Shown piece by piece: positions 12,111-62,148 of a stretch of 64,000 nt of DNA (position 1 is the stretch's first letter; the number at the start of each line of letters is the position of its first letter). Below the pieces are notes generated by a model. It had not been told where the DNA came from, ran no database searches, and worked only from the letters and a program-made list of their open reading frames with translations. The DNA is from Spirosoma fluviale (lineage in GTDB: Bacteria; Bacteroidota; Bacteroidia; Cytophagales; Spirosomataceae), in contig NZ_OCNH01000003.1 in NCBI RefSeq assembly GCF_900230225.1, forward strand, positions 124,001 through 188,000, in the 5' to 3' direction. The position numbers and the translations under genes were made by a program.

Positions 12111-12842
12111 TCAATCTACAATTCTAAACATCATCTTTGCCTTCTCTCTCGACAGCGAATTGAAATGCCACCATTCATACTCAATCGGCGTAAAGCCGCC
12201 CTGCCGCATAGCCGTACGCAGAATCTGACGGTTGTCGATTTGCTGCCGGGTTAATTTTCCGGATTGAAGGAGTTGTTTTTCGCGGGATGGGTACGCCAGT
12301 TCACCGAAGAAATCGTATTTAGTGCCCATGTCCAGTGCTTTTCCATCGGCCGTGGCTACAGTTAAGTCGACCGCGCAGCCGTAGTTGTGAATAGAACCTA
12401 TGCGCGGGTCGGCTACGTATTTCCGGCGCTCATTTTCGGATAACTCGGGCAGGGCGTTCCAGAGTTTCCATTGGGCCGAGCGGGGGCGGGCGGCATCATA
12501 CACCAGCAGGCGAAGGTTAGGGTGATGCGCCTGTAGATACTTGCTGGCCTTTGTGAGTTTTTCGGCGGCCATGGGCTGCATATACGCCCGTGTGAGGTCG
12601 CCATACACGTCTTTCCCGACGAAGTTGTCGGTGGTTGAATACTTGAGTTCGACCAGAATGGTGGGGTCTGCTTTTTGTACATCAACAAGGCCCTGTTTGG
12701 CCATAGCGGCTTCGAAATCCTGTGCTTTAAGCGTTAAGCCACAGAGATACGCAGAGAAAACACAGAGATACACAAAGAATCTCTGTGCAACTCCGTGCGT
12801 CTCTGTGAATCTTTGTGGCTTAACTTTTTTACCGTTCATCAT
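12111..12842 (-). CDS. ddpX: D-alanyl-D-alanine dipeptidase, M15D (VanX/DdpX type)
   Basis: Cleaves D-Ala-D-Ala, in this setting probably for recycling of peptidoglycan peptides. The peptidase domain has the zinc ligands SIHNYGCAVDLT (His, Asp) and the catalytic Glu/His in EYEWWHF, plus AARPRSAQWKLW. The odd part is the N-terminus: the region up to KAQ|DFEAAM, including the hydrophobic stretch FFVYLCVFSAYLCGL, is encoded by a palindromic intergenic-type repeat (12733-12824). It reads as a usable signal peptide. Starts at 12866, 12842 or 12839 are possible; I prefer 12842. It could instead begin inside, at MAKQGLVDV, giving a cytoplasmic enzyme. Confidence 0.9.
   Translation of the reverse strand: MMNGKKVKPQRFTETHGVAQRFFVYLCVFSAYLCGLTLKAQDFEAAMAKQGLVDVQKADPTILVELKYSTTDNFVGKDVYGDLTRAYMQPMAAEKLTKASKYLQAHHPNLRLLVYDAARPRSAQWKLWNALPELSENERRKYVADPRIGSIHNYGCAVDLTVATADGKALDMGTKYDFFGELAYPSREKQLLQSGKLTRQQIDNRQILRTAMRQGGFTPIEYEWWHFNSLSREKAKMMFRIVD
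12733..12824. repeat. CACAGAGAT-family palindromic repeat inside a coding region
   Basis: Left arm 12733-12779 (GTTAAGCCACAGAGATACGC...) pairs imperfectly with right arm 12780-12824 (...TTTGTGGCTTAAC). Both arms are built from a CACAGAGAT/CACGGAG theme. A relative lies at 60757-60833. This copy encodes the leader of the D-Ala-D-Ala dipeptidase. Confidence 0.85.
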
Positions 12843-12893
12843 AACGCAAATAACGCCAAAACGCACTACTTTGCTTGCTAAACCGCCCGTAAC

Positions 12894-14129
12894 ATGGCCT
12901 TAAATTACATCTGGGTTGCCTTTTTTATCGTTGCGTTTATCGTTGCGCTGGCCAAACTGATCTTCCTGGGCGACACCGAGATCTTCAAAATTCTGGTTGA
13001 AGGGCTGTTCGATTCGTCCAAAGTGGCCGTTATGGACATTGCCCTGCCACTAGCCGGGGTGATGACGTTTTTTCTGGGATTGCTCAACATCGGCGAAAAA
13101 GCGGGAGCCATCAATTTCCTGGCCCGCATCATCGGCCCGTTCTTTCACAAGCTCTTCCCCGAAGTGCCCCGAGACCATCCGGCAAACGGGCAAATGATCA
13201 TGAATTTCTCCGCCAATATGCTTGGGCTGGACAATGCCGCCACGCCGTTCGGCTTACGGGCCATGGCGAGTTTACAGGAACTGAACCCGACGAAAGAAAC
13301 GGCCTCCAATGCACAGATCATGTTTCTGGTATTGCACACATCGGGCTTAACCATTATTCCCCTGAGCATCATGGCGCAGCGGGCAATTCTGGGGGCCAAA
13401 GACCCGTCGGATATTTTCATTCCCTGCCTGATTGCTACGTACGTTGCCACGGTCGTGAGTATGATTGCGGTAGCCATCAAACAACGCATCAACTTGATTA
13501 ATACTACCGTATTGGGCTGGTTAGGCGGTATCACCAGCCTGATTGGCCTGGCGTTGTGGTTCCTGTCGACCAAAACGAAAGACGAGATCGAGGTCATTTC
13601 GAAGGTGACGGGCAACCTTGTGCTGATGCTCATTGTGGTGTCGTTTCTGCTGGGCGCAATGCGCAAAAAAGTAGATATTTTCGACGCGTTCATCGAAGGG
13701 GCAAAAGGTGGTTTCGAAACCTCCGTCCGCATTATCCCGTATCTGGTTGGCATGCTCGTGGCCATTGGGGCCTTCCGCAACTCGGGAGCTATGGATTATG
13801 TAATCGACGGGCTGAAATATGTGTTCAGTCTGACGGGTATCAACACCGAGTTTACCGATGCCCTGCCGGTGGCCCTCATGCGGCCATTGAGCGGTTCAGG
13901 ATCGCGGGCACTGATGATCGATGCGATGAAGCAGTTTGGTCCTGACTCCTTTGTCGGGCGGCTGGCCTGTATGTTTCAGGGGGCGGCCGATACAACGTTT
14001 TACATTGTGGCCCTGTACTTTGGCTCAGTGGGTATTCGCAACTCACGGTATGCCATTCCATTTGGCCTATTCGCCGATTTAATGGGTGTCATCGCTGGTA
14101 TTGCCCTCGGATATTTCTTCTTTCACTGA
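12894..14129 (+). CDS. fused spore maturation protein A/B (nucleoside-recognition gate domains)
   Basis: 411 residues, about ten membrane helices. The N-terminal half resembles SpmA (MNFSANMLGLDNAATPFGL, FLVLHTSGLTIIP); the C-terminal half resembles SpmB (GAKGGFETSVRIIPYLVGM, ALMRPLSGSGSRALMIDAM, QGAADTTFYIVALYFGS). Both halves are Gate/nucleoside-recognition domains. In Bacillus, SpmA and SpmB act in spore core dehydration; in non-spore-formers the role is unknown, probably small-solute transport at the inner membrane. The fused form is common in Bacteroidota. It is divergent from the dipeptidase gene, 51 bases apart. Confidence 0.9.
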   Translation: MALNYIWVAFFIVAFIVALAKLIFLGDTEIFKILVEGLFDSSKVAVMDIALPLAGVMTFFLGLLNIGEKAGAINFLARIIGPFFHKLFPEVPRDHPANGQMIMNFSANMLGLDNAATPFGLRAMASLQELNPTKETASNAQIMFLVLHTSGLTIIPLSIMAQRAILGAKDPSDIFIPCLIATYVATVVSMIAVAIKQRINLINTTVLGWLGGITSLIGLALWFLSTKTKDEIEVISKVTGNLVLMLIVVSFLLGAMRKKVDIFDAFIEGAKGGFETSVRIIPYLVGMLVAIGAFRNSGAMDYVIDGLKYVFSLTGINTEFTDALPVALMRPLSGSGSRALMIDAMKQFGPDSFVGRLACMFQGAADTTFYIVALYFGSVGIRNSRYAIPFGLFADLMGVIAGIALGYFFFH

Positions 14130-60204: not shown

Positions 60205-60271
60205 AATAAGTGAGTGAGTGAATATGTTCGAGACGACTTTATTCACTCATTCACTCATTCACTCATTCACC
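60205..60271. repeat. GAGTGAAT-family hairpin abutting folK
   Basis: AAGTGAGTGAGTGAATAT (about 60208-60225) pairs with part of a tandem run ATTCACTC (60241-60270). The right edge is two bases from the folK start codon. Confidence 0.75.
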
Positions 60272-60272
60272 A

Positions 60273-60752
60273 TTGAAAACTCACCTCCTCCTCGGCGCCA
60301 ACCTCGGCGACCGCCCTTATACGCTTCTTCGGGCAGTTGACTTTATTTCGGAACGTGTCGGACGAGTAGTGCAGCAGTCGGGATTGTACGAAACGGCTCC
60401 CTGGGGCGTTACCGATCAACCCGCTTACCTGAATCAGGTGCTGGCGGTTGAGACTACTTTACTGCCTAAAGAAGTGCTTGAACACACACAGGCGATTGAG
60501 CAGGAACTGGGCCGGGTGAGACTGGAGAAGTGGGGTGCCCGCGTGATTGACATTGATATACTGTTCTACGATCAGCTCATGCTACACACAAACACCCTTA
60601 CGATTCCGCATCCGTTTCTTCACCAGCGACGGTTTACCCTCGTGCCGCTAGCCGAAATTGCCCCGGATTTTGTGCATCCTGTTTTGGGGAAAACGACAAC
60701 TGAGTTACTGGGAGATTGTGAGGATGAGGGAGAGGTAACAAGGTTTATTTAA
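60273..60752 (+). CDS. folK: 6-hydroxymethyl-7,8-dihydropterin pyrophosphokinase
   Basis: 159 residues starting with TTG at 60273 (KTHLLLGANLGDRPYTLLRA); no ATG is suitably placed in frame. It moves pyrophosphate from ATP to 6-hydroxymethyl-dihydropterin in folate synthesis. GANLGDR, YETAPWGVTDQPAYLNQVL, RLEKWGARVIDIDILFYD (metal-binding Asp pair) and PHPFLHQRRFTLVPLAEI are intact. The start codon lies directly against a GAGTGAAT hairpin, which may have replaced an older start. Confidence 0.95.
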   Translation: MKTHLLLGANLGDRPYTLLRAVDFISERVGRVVQQSGLYETAPWGVTDQPAYLNQVLAVETTLLPKEVLEHTQAIEQELGRVRLEKWGARVIDIDILFYDQLMLHTNTLTIPHPFLHQRRFTLVPLAEIAPDFVHPVLGKTTTELLGDCEDEGEVTRFI

Positions 60753-60756
60753 AAGT

Positions 60757-60833
60757 TATGACACAGAGATGCACGGAGATGCACAAAGAAGAAAAAAGAC
60801 CCTCTGTGCATCTCCGTGCATCTCTGTGTCATA
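60757..60833. repeat. CACAGAGAT-family hairpin
   Basis: Arms 60757-60788 and 60802-60833 (ATGACACAGAGATGCACGGA and complement, one mismatch). It follows the folK stop directly. Same family as the repeat at 12733-12824. Confidence 0.85.
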
Positions 60834-60930: not shown

Positions 60931-62148
60931 ATGTCTGCCACGCTTGACACCGTGAGTTTGTTAGCCGACCGCATCAACGCGCTGGAGGAGTCGTCCACGC
61001 TGGCGATGACCAAAAAGGCCCGTGAATTGGCCGCTCAGGGCCACAAAGTAATTAGCCTGAGCGTTGGGGAGCCGGATTTTAAAACACCCGCACACATCTG
61101 CGAAGCCGCCAAGAAAGCCATTGATGATGGTTTCCATGGCTATTCGCCCGTTGCCGGTTATCCCGACCTACGCAAGGCCATTGCCGATAAATTCAAGCGC
61201 GACAATAATATCGACTGGAAACCCGAGAATATTGTTGTGTCGACCGGTGCCAAGCACTCGCTGGCAAACGTCATTCAGGTGCTGGTGAACCCCGGCGATG
61301 AAGTAATTATCTTCTCGCCGTACTGGGTTAGTTATTCCGAAATGGTGAAACTGGCCGAAGGTAAAGCGGTTGTCGTTGACGGTAGCTTCGATAATAACTT
61401 TAAAGTAACGCCGGAACAGTTTGAAGCCGCCATTACGGACCGGACCAAGATTGTGATGTACGCATCGCCGAACAACCCAACGGGTTCTATTTATTCGGAA
61501 GCCGAACTGCGTGCCATTGCCGATGTGGTGGCCCGGCATGAGAACGTCCACGTACTGGCCGATGAGATTTACGAATACATCAACTTCACCCCCGAAGGTC
61601 ATTTCAGCATGGGATCGATTCCCGAAATTGCTGAACGTGTCATTACGGTAAATGGAGTAGCTAAAGGCTATGCCATGACGGGCTGGCGGATCGGGTATAT
61701 TGGCGCGGCTAAATGGATTGCCGATGGTGTTGAGAAACTCCAGGGCCAGGTAACATCGGGTACCAACTCTATTGCGCAGAAAGCAACGGTAGCTGCCCTG
61801 AACGGGCCGATGGAACCATCCATGGAAATGGCTAAAGCGTATCACCGTCGGCGTGATTTAGTCGTAGGCTTGCTGAAAGAAGTCCCTCATTTTCGTACTA
61901 ATGTACCGGAAGGTGCCTTCTATGCTTTCCCCGACATCAGCTATTACTACGGCAAGTCGGATGGAACGACAACGATCCAAAATTCGGATGACTTCGCTGG
62001 CTGGTTACTGAATACTGCGCATGTGGCAACCGTTGCGGGTTCGGGTTTCGGAGCTCCGGATTGCCTGCGTATCTCAACGGCCGCATCCGACGAATCACTT
62101 GTCGAAGCGGTTCAACGCATTAAAGATGCAGTGGCTACATTAAAATAA
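60931..62148 (+). CDS. PLP-dependent aminotransferase, aspartate type
   Basis: 405 residues, fold type I, class I/II. SLSVGEPDFKTPAHI, VSTGAKHSLANVIQV, YASPNNPTGSIYSEAEL (cofactor ring and substrate contacts), LADEIYEYINF and the PLP Lys in VNGVAKGYAMTGWRIGY are present. It resembles the AspB-type (1-beta) aspartate aminotransferases, moving amino groups between aspartate and 2-oxoglutarate; prephenate is an alternative substrate in this group. It is monocistronic with a strong terminator. Confidence 0.94.
   Translation: MSATLDTVSLLADRINALEESSTLAMTKKARELAAQGHKVISLSVGEPDFKTPAHICEAAKKAIDDGFHGYSPVAGYPDLRKAIADKFKRDNNIDWKPENIVVSTGAKHSLANVIQVLVNPGDEVIIFSPYWVSYSEMVKLAEGKAVVVDGSFDNNFKVTPEQFEAAITDRTKIVMYASPNNPTGSIYSEAELRAIADVVARHENVHVLADEIYEYINFTPEGHFSMGSIPEIAERVITVNGVAKGYAMTGWRIGYIGAAKWIADGVEKLQGQVTSGTNSIAQKATVAALNGPMEPSMEMAKAYHRRRDLVVGLLKEVPHFRTNVPEGAFYAFPDISYYYGKSDGTTTIQNSDDFAGWLLNTAHVATVAGSGFGAPDCLRISTAASDESLVEAVQRIKDAVATLK

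Follow-up and report, generated by a model that had tools for sequence, protein, structure and literature searches.

The window analysed here is a 64,000-nucleotide (nt) stretch of Spirosoma fluviale DNA (contig NZ_OCNH01000003.1, positions 124,001 to 188,000). It carries a gene for an M15 D-Ala-D-Ala dipeptidase with a palindromic repeat at its 5' end, in the part that would encode an export signal. The genome carrying the window (G000, 7.8 Mb) was compared with 35 relatives that we take to be Spirosoma, for a set of 36 genus genomes. Three features are needed at the outset (positions are those of the window):

12111 to 12842, minus strand: M15 D-Ala-D-Ala dipeptidase gene (P0001), read from the ATG at 12842, 243 amino acids (aa).
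12733 to 12824, unstranded: family-1 palindromic repeat (hairpin), 92 nt, recognized by its arms, fold, and profile match.
60757 to 60833, unstranded: second family-1 copy in the window, intergenic.

The mechanical open reading frame (ORF), 12111 to 12866 on the minus strand, opens at a GTG at 12866 and contains a full match to the M15 domain (PF01427; E value, 4.3e-29; 102.1 bits against a gathering cut-off of 27). Its product is predicted to be an exported enzyme, with D-Ala-D-Ala activity predicted from the domain match. We take M15 dipeptidases of this kind to be of the VanX/DdpX type; the Spirosoma version shares the PF01427 domain with them and differs in its predicted export and putatively repeat-derived leader.

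The outer arms of the hairpin (12733 to 12757 and 12800 to 12824) are 25 nt each and 88% complementary, and in the predicted fold the stem continues inward to a 3-nt loop at 12778 to 12780. The folded strand reaches -54.7 kcal/mol, whereas shuffled sequences average -21.8 (z, -10.2) and none of 200 shuffles folds as well. Together with the domain match, this fold bears out the preliminary description of the DNA, which had placed a hairpin-repeat family at the 5' end of a D-Ala-D-Ala dipeptidase gene; the intergenic copy that it reported also lies where it was said to, between the ORFs at 60273 to 60752 and 60931 to 62148. With up to 3 mismatches allowed, the motif CACAGAGATRCACRGAGA occurs 9 times in the window against an expectation of 0.08, and all 9 occurrences fall at two places, 12740 to 12817 and 60762 to 60828.

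In the frame opened by the ATG at 12842, the leader consists of MMNGKK, VKPQRFTETHGVAQR from the purine-rich arm, FFVYLCVFSAYLCGL from the pyrimidine-rich arm, and TLKAQ. It divides as follows:

12780 to 12842, minus strand: n-region MMNGKKVKPQRFTETHGVAQR, made up of MMNGKK, which lies outside the repeat, followed by the residues of the purine-rich arm; net charge about +4.
12729 to 12779, minus strand: h-region FFVYLCVFSAYLCGLTL, almost wholly from the pyrimidine-rich arm.
12720 to 12731, minus strand: c-region L-K-A-Q (L38-K39-A40-Q41), a predicted cut site for signal peptidase I that lies outside the repeat.
12702 to 12704, minus strand: internal Met codon (MAKQGLVDV), a rival start seen in the sequence.

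Most of the n- and h-regions come from the repeat, but the cut site does not. The arms were thus assigned correctly beforehand (on the minus strand, the right arm encodes the polar segment in front and the left arm encodes FFVYLCVFSAYLCGL), and the basic N-region and hydrophobic core credited to the repeat frame stand. The cleavage region and its AQ cut site, also credited to the repeat, do not, because the L-K-A-Q codons (12731 to 12720) lie outside the hairpin. The h-region peaks at a Kyte-Doolittle mean of 2.06 over 11 residues, and the leader has the layout of a Sec signal peptide for signal peptidase I: a basic n-region, a hydrophobic h-region, and a small residue before the cut.

Eight further genomes of the genus carry family 1 in this leader. 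All nine leaders are similar in layout (charge, +3 to +7; peak hydropathy, 1.95 to 2.82), all nine keep A-Q, and in all nine the ATG directly follows a TATTT-[G/A]CG-NN block. The distances from the ATG to an anchor in the mature part (150, 150, 153, 153, 150, 153, 168, 159, and 159 nt) are all multiples of 3, and the coding frame alone among the six frames is free of stops in every genome. From these patterns we infer translation from 12842, Sec export, and A-Q cleavage.

Family 1 is a dispersed repeat. A 28-base pattern, with up to 3 mismatches allowed, is matched 21 times in G000, and its reversed control never is. From that genome 27 hairpin loci were fetched, corresponding to 25 distinct places, one of them unevaluated at a contig end; this set is non-exhaustive and missed the second copy in the window. 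Family 2, a second palindromic repeat with the core TCGCTCTTTCACTCTTTCGCTC (up to 2 mismatches), is present in 35 of the 36 genus genomes, with up to 260 matches in a single genome and none for the reversed control. Nucleotide profiles (nhmmer) were built for each family, with 19 family-1 copies taken from outside the leaders of the tested genes and with 20 family-2 copies. At least 5 of the 20 family-2 copies (L200, L203, L208, L211, and L213) have an ATG within about 15 nt after the hairpin, judged by eye and unchecked as gene starts; this may be the reason such repeats become fused to leaders. A short CACTCATTC tandem at 60244 to 60268 in the window, just 5' of the ORF starting at 60273, is family-2-like.

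Of the long open frames that run through repeats, we dismissed many as leaders because the repeat is followed by a Met that is itself a probable start (e.g., L042, L045, L050, L176, L177, and L187); the 20 repeat stretches chosen for long open frames are an unfair sample. A family-1 copy also lies directly in front of what appears to be truB in G000, G005, and G014 (L046, L183, and L185). These copies were likewise set aside because the protein looks cytosolic.

The leaders of 35 Spirosoma dipeptidases (one of the 36 genomes gave none) and two outgroup orthologues were scored against both profiles, each with 100 codon shuffles. The G000 leader scores 74.7 bits for family 1 over model positions 3 to 110, whereas its best shuffle reaches 4.2. 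Nine of the 35 leaders carry family 1 (17.5 to 85.6 bits; shuffles of those rows, at most 9.2), with matches that cover almost the entire element, and 17 carry family 2 at scores that no shuffle of any row attains (maximum, 7.6). Four more are weak for family 2 (1.4 to 7.6 bits, above their own shuffles), five have neither family, and none has both. Neither outgroup orthologue has either repeat (score 0 for family 1). The expectation that relatives would have ordinary, unrelated leaders thus holds for some orthologues and fails for the nine with family 1 and for 17 of the other 26 (plus the four weak ones) with family 2.

Occurrence of the same leader in distant genera had been named as a point that would count against a repeat origin. 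A family-1-type leader query (E value, ≤0.001) over 390 genomes of the order matched seven, of which six are Spirosoma and the seventh (G225) holds 78-aa open frames only; among these 390 genomes, no match with a long open frame was found outside Spirosoma. A database search with the leader alone returned three dipeptidases, among just 3 candidates.

The sequence upstream of the leader bears on the history of the insertion. It comprises the following:

12843 to 12893, unstranded: spacer between divergent start codons, 51 nt.
12894 to 14129, plus strand: divergent Gate-domain (nucleoside recognition) membrane protein (PF07670).

The Gate-domain gene neighbours the dipeptidase gene in 35 of 35 genomes examined, and either family 1 or family 2 lies between the same two genes, depending on the genome. 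A spacer block is shared clearly among seven family-1 genomes (alignment scores, 47 to 140; shuffled maximum, 22). The match is weak in G005 and G017 (22 to 41), where the 75-nt segments take in the start of the repeat; the eight best spacer matches of each are the other eight family-1 genomes. On these alignments, the family-1 insertion at the dipeptidase is shared, not fresh.

Family 1 requires 5 changes on the two-protein tree (37 rows), where well-supported branches force every one of them. It requires 5 as well on each of the dipeptidase and Gate gene trees, with 3 and 4 of these forced, respectively. Since the Gate tree joins five family-1 genomes that the two-protein tree keeps apart, recombination of a Gate-spacer-leader block, or retention with repeated replacement, appears likelier than many insertions at one spot, and the upstream block shared by seven genomes likewise disfavours many independent insertions. 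For G005 and G017, in which the block aligns poorly and the alignment takes in some of the repeat, the leaders may have arisen separately. The G008 leader, now decayed to a score of 17.5 bits, retains an intact frame; the family-1 pattern, searched against the G008 genome, matched nowhere.

The hairpin could instead be kept for a role at the RNA or DNA level, such as an attenuator or a boundary between divergent genes, with coding as a side effect. The strength of the fold would suit such a role, as would the ATGs that closely follow some family-2 hairpins. However, over a fixed 108 nt, G013, G014, and G008 fold less strongly (-26, -33, and -39 kcal/mol, compared with -56 in G000) and yet keep frame and leader, and the family-2 matches in dipeptidase leaders cover just part of the model. 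A search of Rfam with the hairpin returned no family at gathering score, only sub-threshold microRNA matches, which we took as chance matches of a long hairpin. We therefore regard an RNA- or DNA-level role as highly improbable.

We detected the same apparent reuse in three other gene families. These genes were found via leader-like queries, so the rates are not genome-wide; the tetratricopeptide repeat (TPR) and DUF4249 sets are as returned by the searches, and some genomes are incomplete. A DUF4403 lipoprotein (PF14356) was found in all 36 genomes, and 8 of the 36 leaders carry family 1 (20.7 to 79.9 bits), with three more at 6 to 8 bits. Seven of the eight matches reach the hydrophobic core, and that in L108 lies upstream of it. 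The G000 leader, GVSLCLLCVSLCLILISC, scores 20.7 bits and uses a repeat frame different from that of the dipeptidase. In this gene (L057:1500-1660), a second palindrome (GGTATCGCTGGGAT...ATCCCAGCGATACC) is nested inside the family-1 element and is the likely source of the ATG. Leader pieces beginning AQG and akin to those of L057 occur in L110, L117, and L122.

The DUF4249 lipoproteins (PF14054) comprise 31 genes, from 29 of 30 loci plus two further paralogues (41 places were listed). Family 1 is present in seven of the 31 genes, from five genomes, at 35 to 69 bits, and the other 24 score at most 0.7. In G014 and G034, a copy with a repeat leader adjoins one with an ordinary leader; the G014 repeat-leader gene scores 47.3 bits and its neighbouring paralogue lacks family 1. 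In six of the seven repeat-leader genes, the 97 residues that follow the Cys include no ATG, and therefore no nearby internal ATG could replace the leader; in G005, the Pfam domain starts 3 residues after it.

A TPR lipoprotein was found in 35 of the 36 genomes. Among the 30 loci scored, 17 carry family 2 in frame (11.3 to 73.9 bits), L295 is weak at 6.9 bits, and L306, L307, and L311 have ordinary leaders. The G000 leader scores 21.5 bits against at most 2.0 for its shuffles. In G025 the first ATG of the leader (MKERERCIKSERAKERTSKKGGRPLFVLSFFHSFALSLFLMAC) lies inside the purine arm, and the G025 and G028 genes could possibly start at an ATG just before the Cys; no start was identified in L308. 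Because its dipeptidase, DUF4403, and TPR leaders all match repeats, G000 seems to hold three repeat-derived export signals.

Family 1 thus behaves as a palindromic coding repeat would: it is dispersed, lies between genes, and also occurs in frame within dipeptidase, DUF4403, and DUF4249 genes. In all four gene families, an A-Q or a Cys at the lipobox position directly follows the repeat-coded part, and these cleavage motifs just outside the repeats look native. The parallel cases in three further genes are what decides for co-option. The leader might still be translated and yet work poorly as a signal or escape cleavage, in which case it would be a neutral N-terminal extension comparable to the repeat insert carried by a Rickettsia guanylate kinase (PMC2229807, as described there). 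The absence of per-site constraint in the leader would be expected of such an extension, and the median hydropathy peak is lower in the nine family-1 leaders (2.15) than in 27 other dipeptidase rows (2.41; family 2, neither family, and one outgroup, some of them mis-cut). Against this stand the hydropathy and charge ranges given above, which hold in all nine genomes, and the cleavage motifs that follow the repeat-coded part in four gene families. We find a neutral extension very unlikely.

The sequences establish the hairpin with its family and frame, its occurrence in nine species, the parallels in three exported-protein genes, and a second repeat family. We postulate, with a probability of about 0.82, that palindromic repeats have been recurrently co-opted as signal peptides in these bacteria and that a family-1 repeat now forms most of the dipeptidase export signal. 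The idea, raised in the preliminary description, that a repeat insertion replaced or created an export signal remains the best reading, given the family-1 score far above its shuffles and the two outgroups without the repeat. Insertion, rather than gradual convergence, probably placed the repeat in the leader: a family-1 element would have entered after the MMNGKK start and before the LKAQ cleavage region and come to serve as most of the signal.

The arms suggest how a hairpin could serve in this way. A purine-rich 5' arm would yield R, K, E, H, Q, and T and the complementary arm L, F, V, C, S, and Y, so that purine-first arms, read in frame, would give basic or polar and then hydrophobic residues, as in the n- and h-regions of a signal peptide; an arm of 35 to 45 nt would correspond to about one h-region. 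Work attributed to Kaiser et al. (1987) reportedly found that random sequences act as export signals, which would explain a working repeat-coded core, although the donor here is a recurrent genomic repeat. A tolerance of signal peptides for nearly any hydrophobic core would then be the reason that such fusions survive at this position. By a crude index of signal-like frames (open frame, 11-residue Kyte-Doolittle mean of ≥1.6, charge of ≥+1), the 19 non-leader family-1 elements have 16 of 114 such frames, compared with 153 of 4,920 in random segments (P = 9e-7).

Several observations weigh against this reading. Leaders account for two of the 24 distinct family-1 places evaluated in G000 (dipeptidase and DUF4403). 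Family 2 (18 elements; 18 of the 20 copies could be delimited) is not enriched by the same index (2 of 108 against 105 of 4,770; P = 1.0), and at a hydropathy threshold of 1.4 the counts are 8 and 164 (P = 0.056). In the TPR gene L304 (G016), repeat and mature part lie in different frames; it is a broken gene or a sequencing error. In the dipeptidase leaders, the +2 frame is open in six of nine genomes, one antisense frame in seven, and the +1 frame in two. Third positions hold 35 to 45% of leader differences, compared with 75 to 86% in the mature part (six genome pairs), and nonsynonymous changes exceed synonymous ones, so that purifying selection at the amino acid level is not visible. A hairpin of -55 kcal/mol just after the start could hinder translation, and the internal Met is found in all nine genomes. 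After the Cys, the DUF4249 genes contain GTG and TTG codons, and the G017 gene has an ATG at +11.

The notion that both repeats are intrinsically signal-like thus found support in family 1 but none in family 2. Because family-2 frames are not signal-like above chance, substitutions must presumably have improved the family-2 leaders, or a large number of insertions must have been lost. The resemblance between leaders and repeats could also be ascribed to chance or to the composition of pyrimidine-rich DNA, the codons of which give L, F, S, V, and C. The unenriched family-2 frames fit such an origin, as do the weak family-2 dipeptidase rows, which lie at or under the highest shuffle of any row. 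Yet codon shuffles come nowhere near the clear scores, the family-1 dipeptidase matches span almost all of a 100-nt element, and the 24 DUF4249 leaders without the repeat score next to nothing, which makes coincidence scarcely credible.

The points on translation bear on another possibility, that the repeat is 5' untranslated DNA, that translation starts at the internal Met (12704), and that the dipeptidase is cytoplasmic. Classical VanX stays cytoplasmic. The near-flat codon-position pattern fits an absence of translation as well as a signal peptide, in which general character alone would matter, and the hairpin after the upstream ATG and the conserved Met also favour an internal start. Moreover, 22 of 118 database homologues (P0027, P0028, P0044, P0078, and P0082 among them) are annotated from that Met. 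But the same Met occurs in orthologues with ordinary-looking signals and can be a plain residue of the mature protein, and the repeat-leader homologues P0039, P0040, and P0056 lack it (seen in the protein only; a TTG or CTG start is possible). Leader lengths and A-Q are kept in all nine genomes, and six of the seven DUF4249 repeat-leader genes offer no nearby ATG. An internal start is, in our view, unlikely.

A protein profile of the nine leaders matched 31 of the 118 homologues at ≥36 bits, a cut-off set by eye with two rows just below it at 31 and 29 bits; 2 of the original 120 homologues had no anchor. P0078 begins at the internal Met in the database, yet its genome (taken as G032) has an in-frame upstream leader, and the entry may therefore be shortened at its N terminus.

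In-gene palindromic repeats and signal-peptide fusions are already known in kind. Descriptions of Rickettsia palindromic elements (RPE; Ogata et al. 2000, via PMC2229807) report palindromes that occur between genes and in frame within protein genes, with inserts in 19 reading frames, many of conserved proteins; signal peptides are named there among fusions of miniature inverted-repeat transposable elements (MITEs). By that description the Spirosoma repeats are alike in kind, occurring both intergenically and in frame, but their fusions are N-terminal and provide the n- and h-regions of predicted export signals. The nearest precedent that we found is the Yersinia RU-2/YPAL repeat in YPO1552 (Delihas 2007, PMC2759123), for which one main example and a few predicted ones are described. 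The Spirosoma case differs from it in involving two repeat families in four gene families across many species, and in having repeat-free paralogues and a stated reason in the order of the arms. In the open-access literature, we found no paper on these Spirosoma repeats or on recurrent repeat-derived signal peptides across genes. What is new is the recurrence over genes and repeat families, the natural controls, and the hairpin rule.

For annotation, the 22 homologues that begin at the internal Met are a warning. More broadly, the origin of signal peptides and their fast turnover between close relatives remain open questions, and recognizable donor DNA, with repeat-free sister genes and paralogues as controls, makes the question of origin directly testable. 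Palindromic repeats would gain a concrete coding use, and a simple rule for a hairpin pre-adapted as an export signal is upheld for family 1 and not for family 2 by our crude index. We think it somewhat probable that dispersed palindromes form a standing supply of export signals in Spirosoma, in that a hairpin with its purine arm first would, on landing in frame close to a start codon, bring both an n-region and a hydrophobic core. From this supply the leaders of exported proteins may be rebuilt time and again, and between its two families they may even be swapped, as at the dipeptidase.
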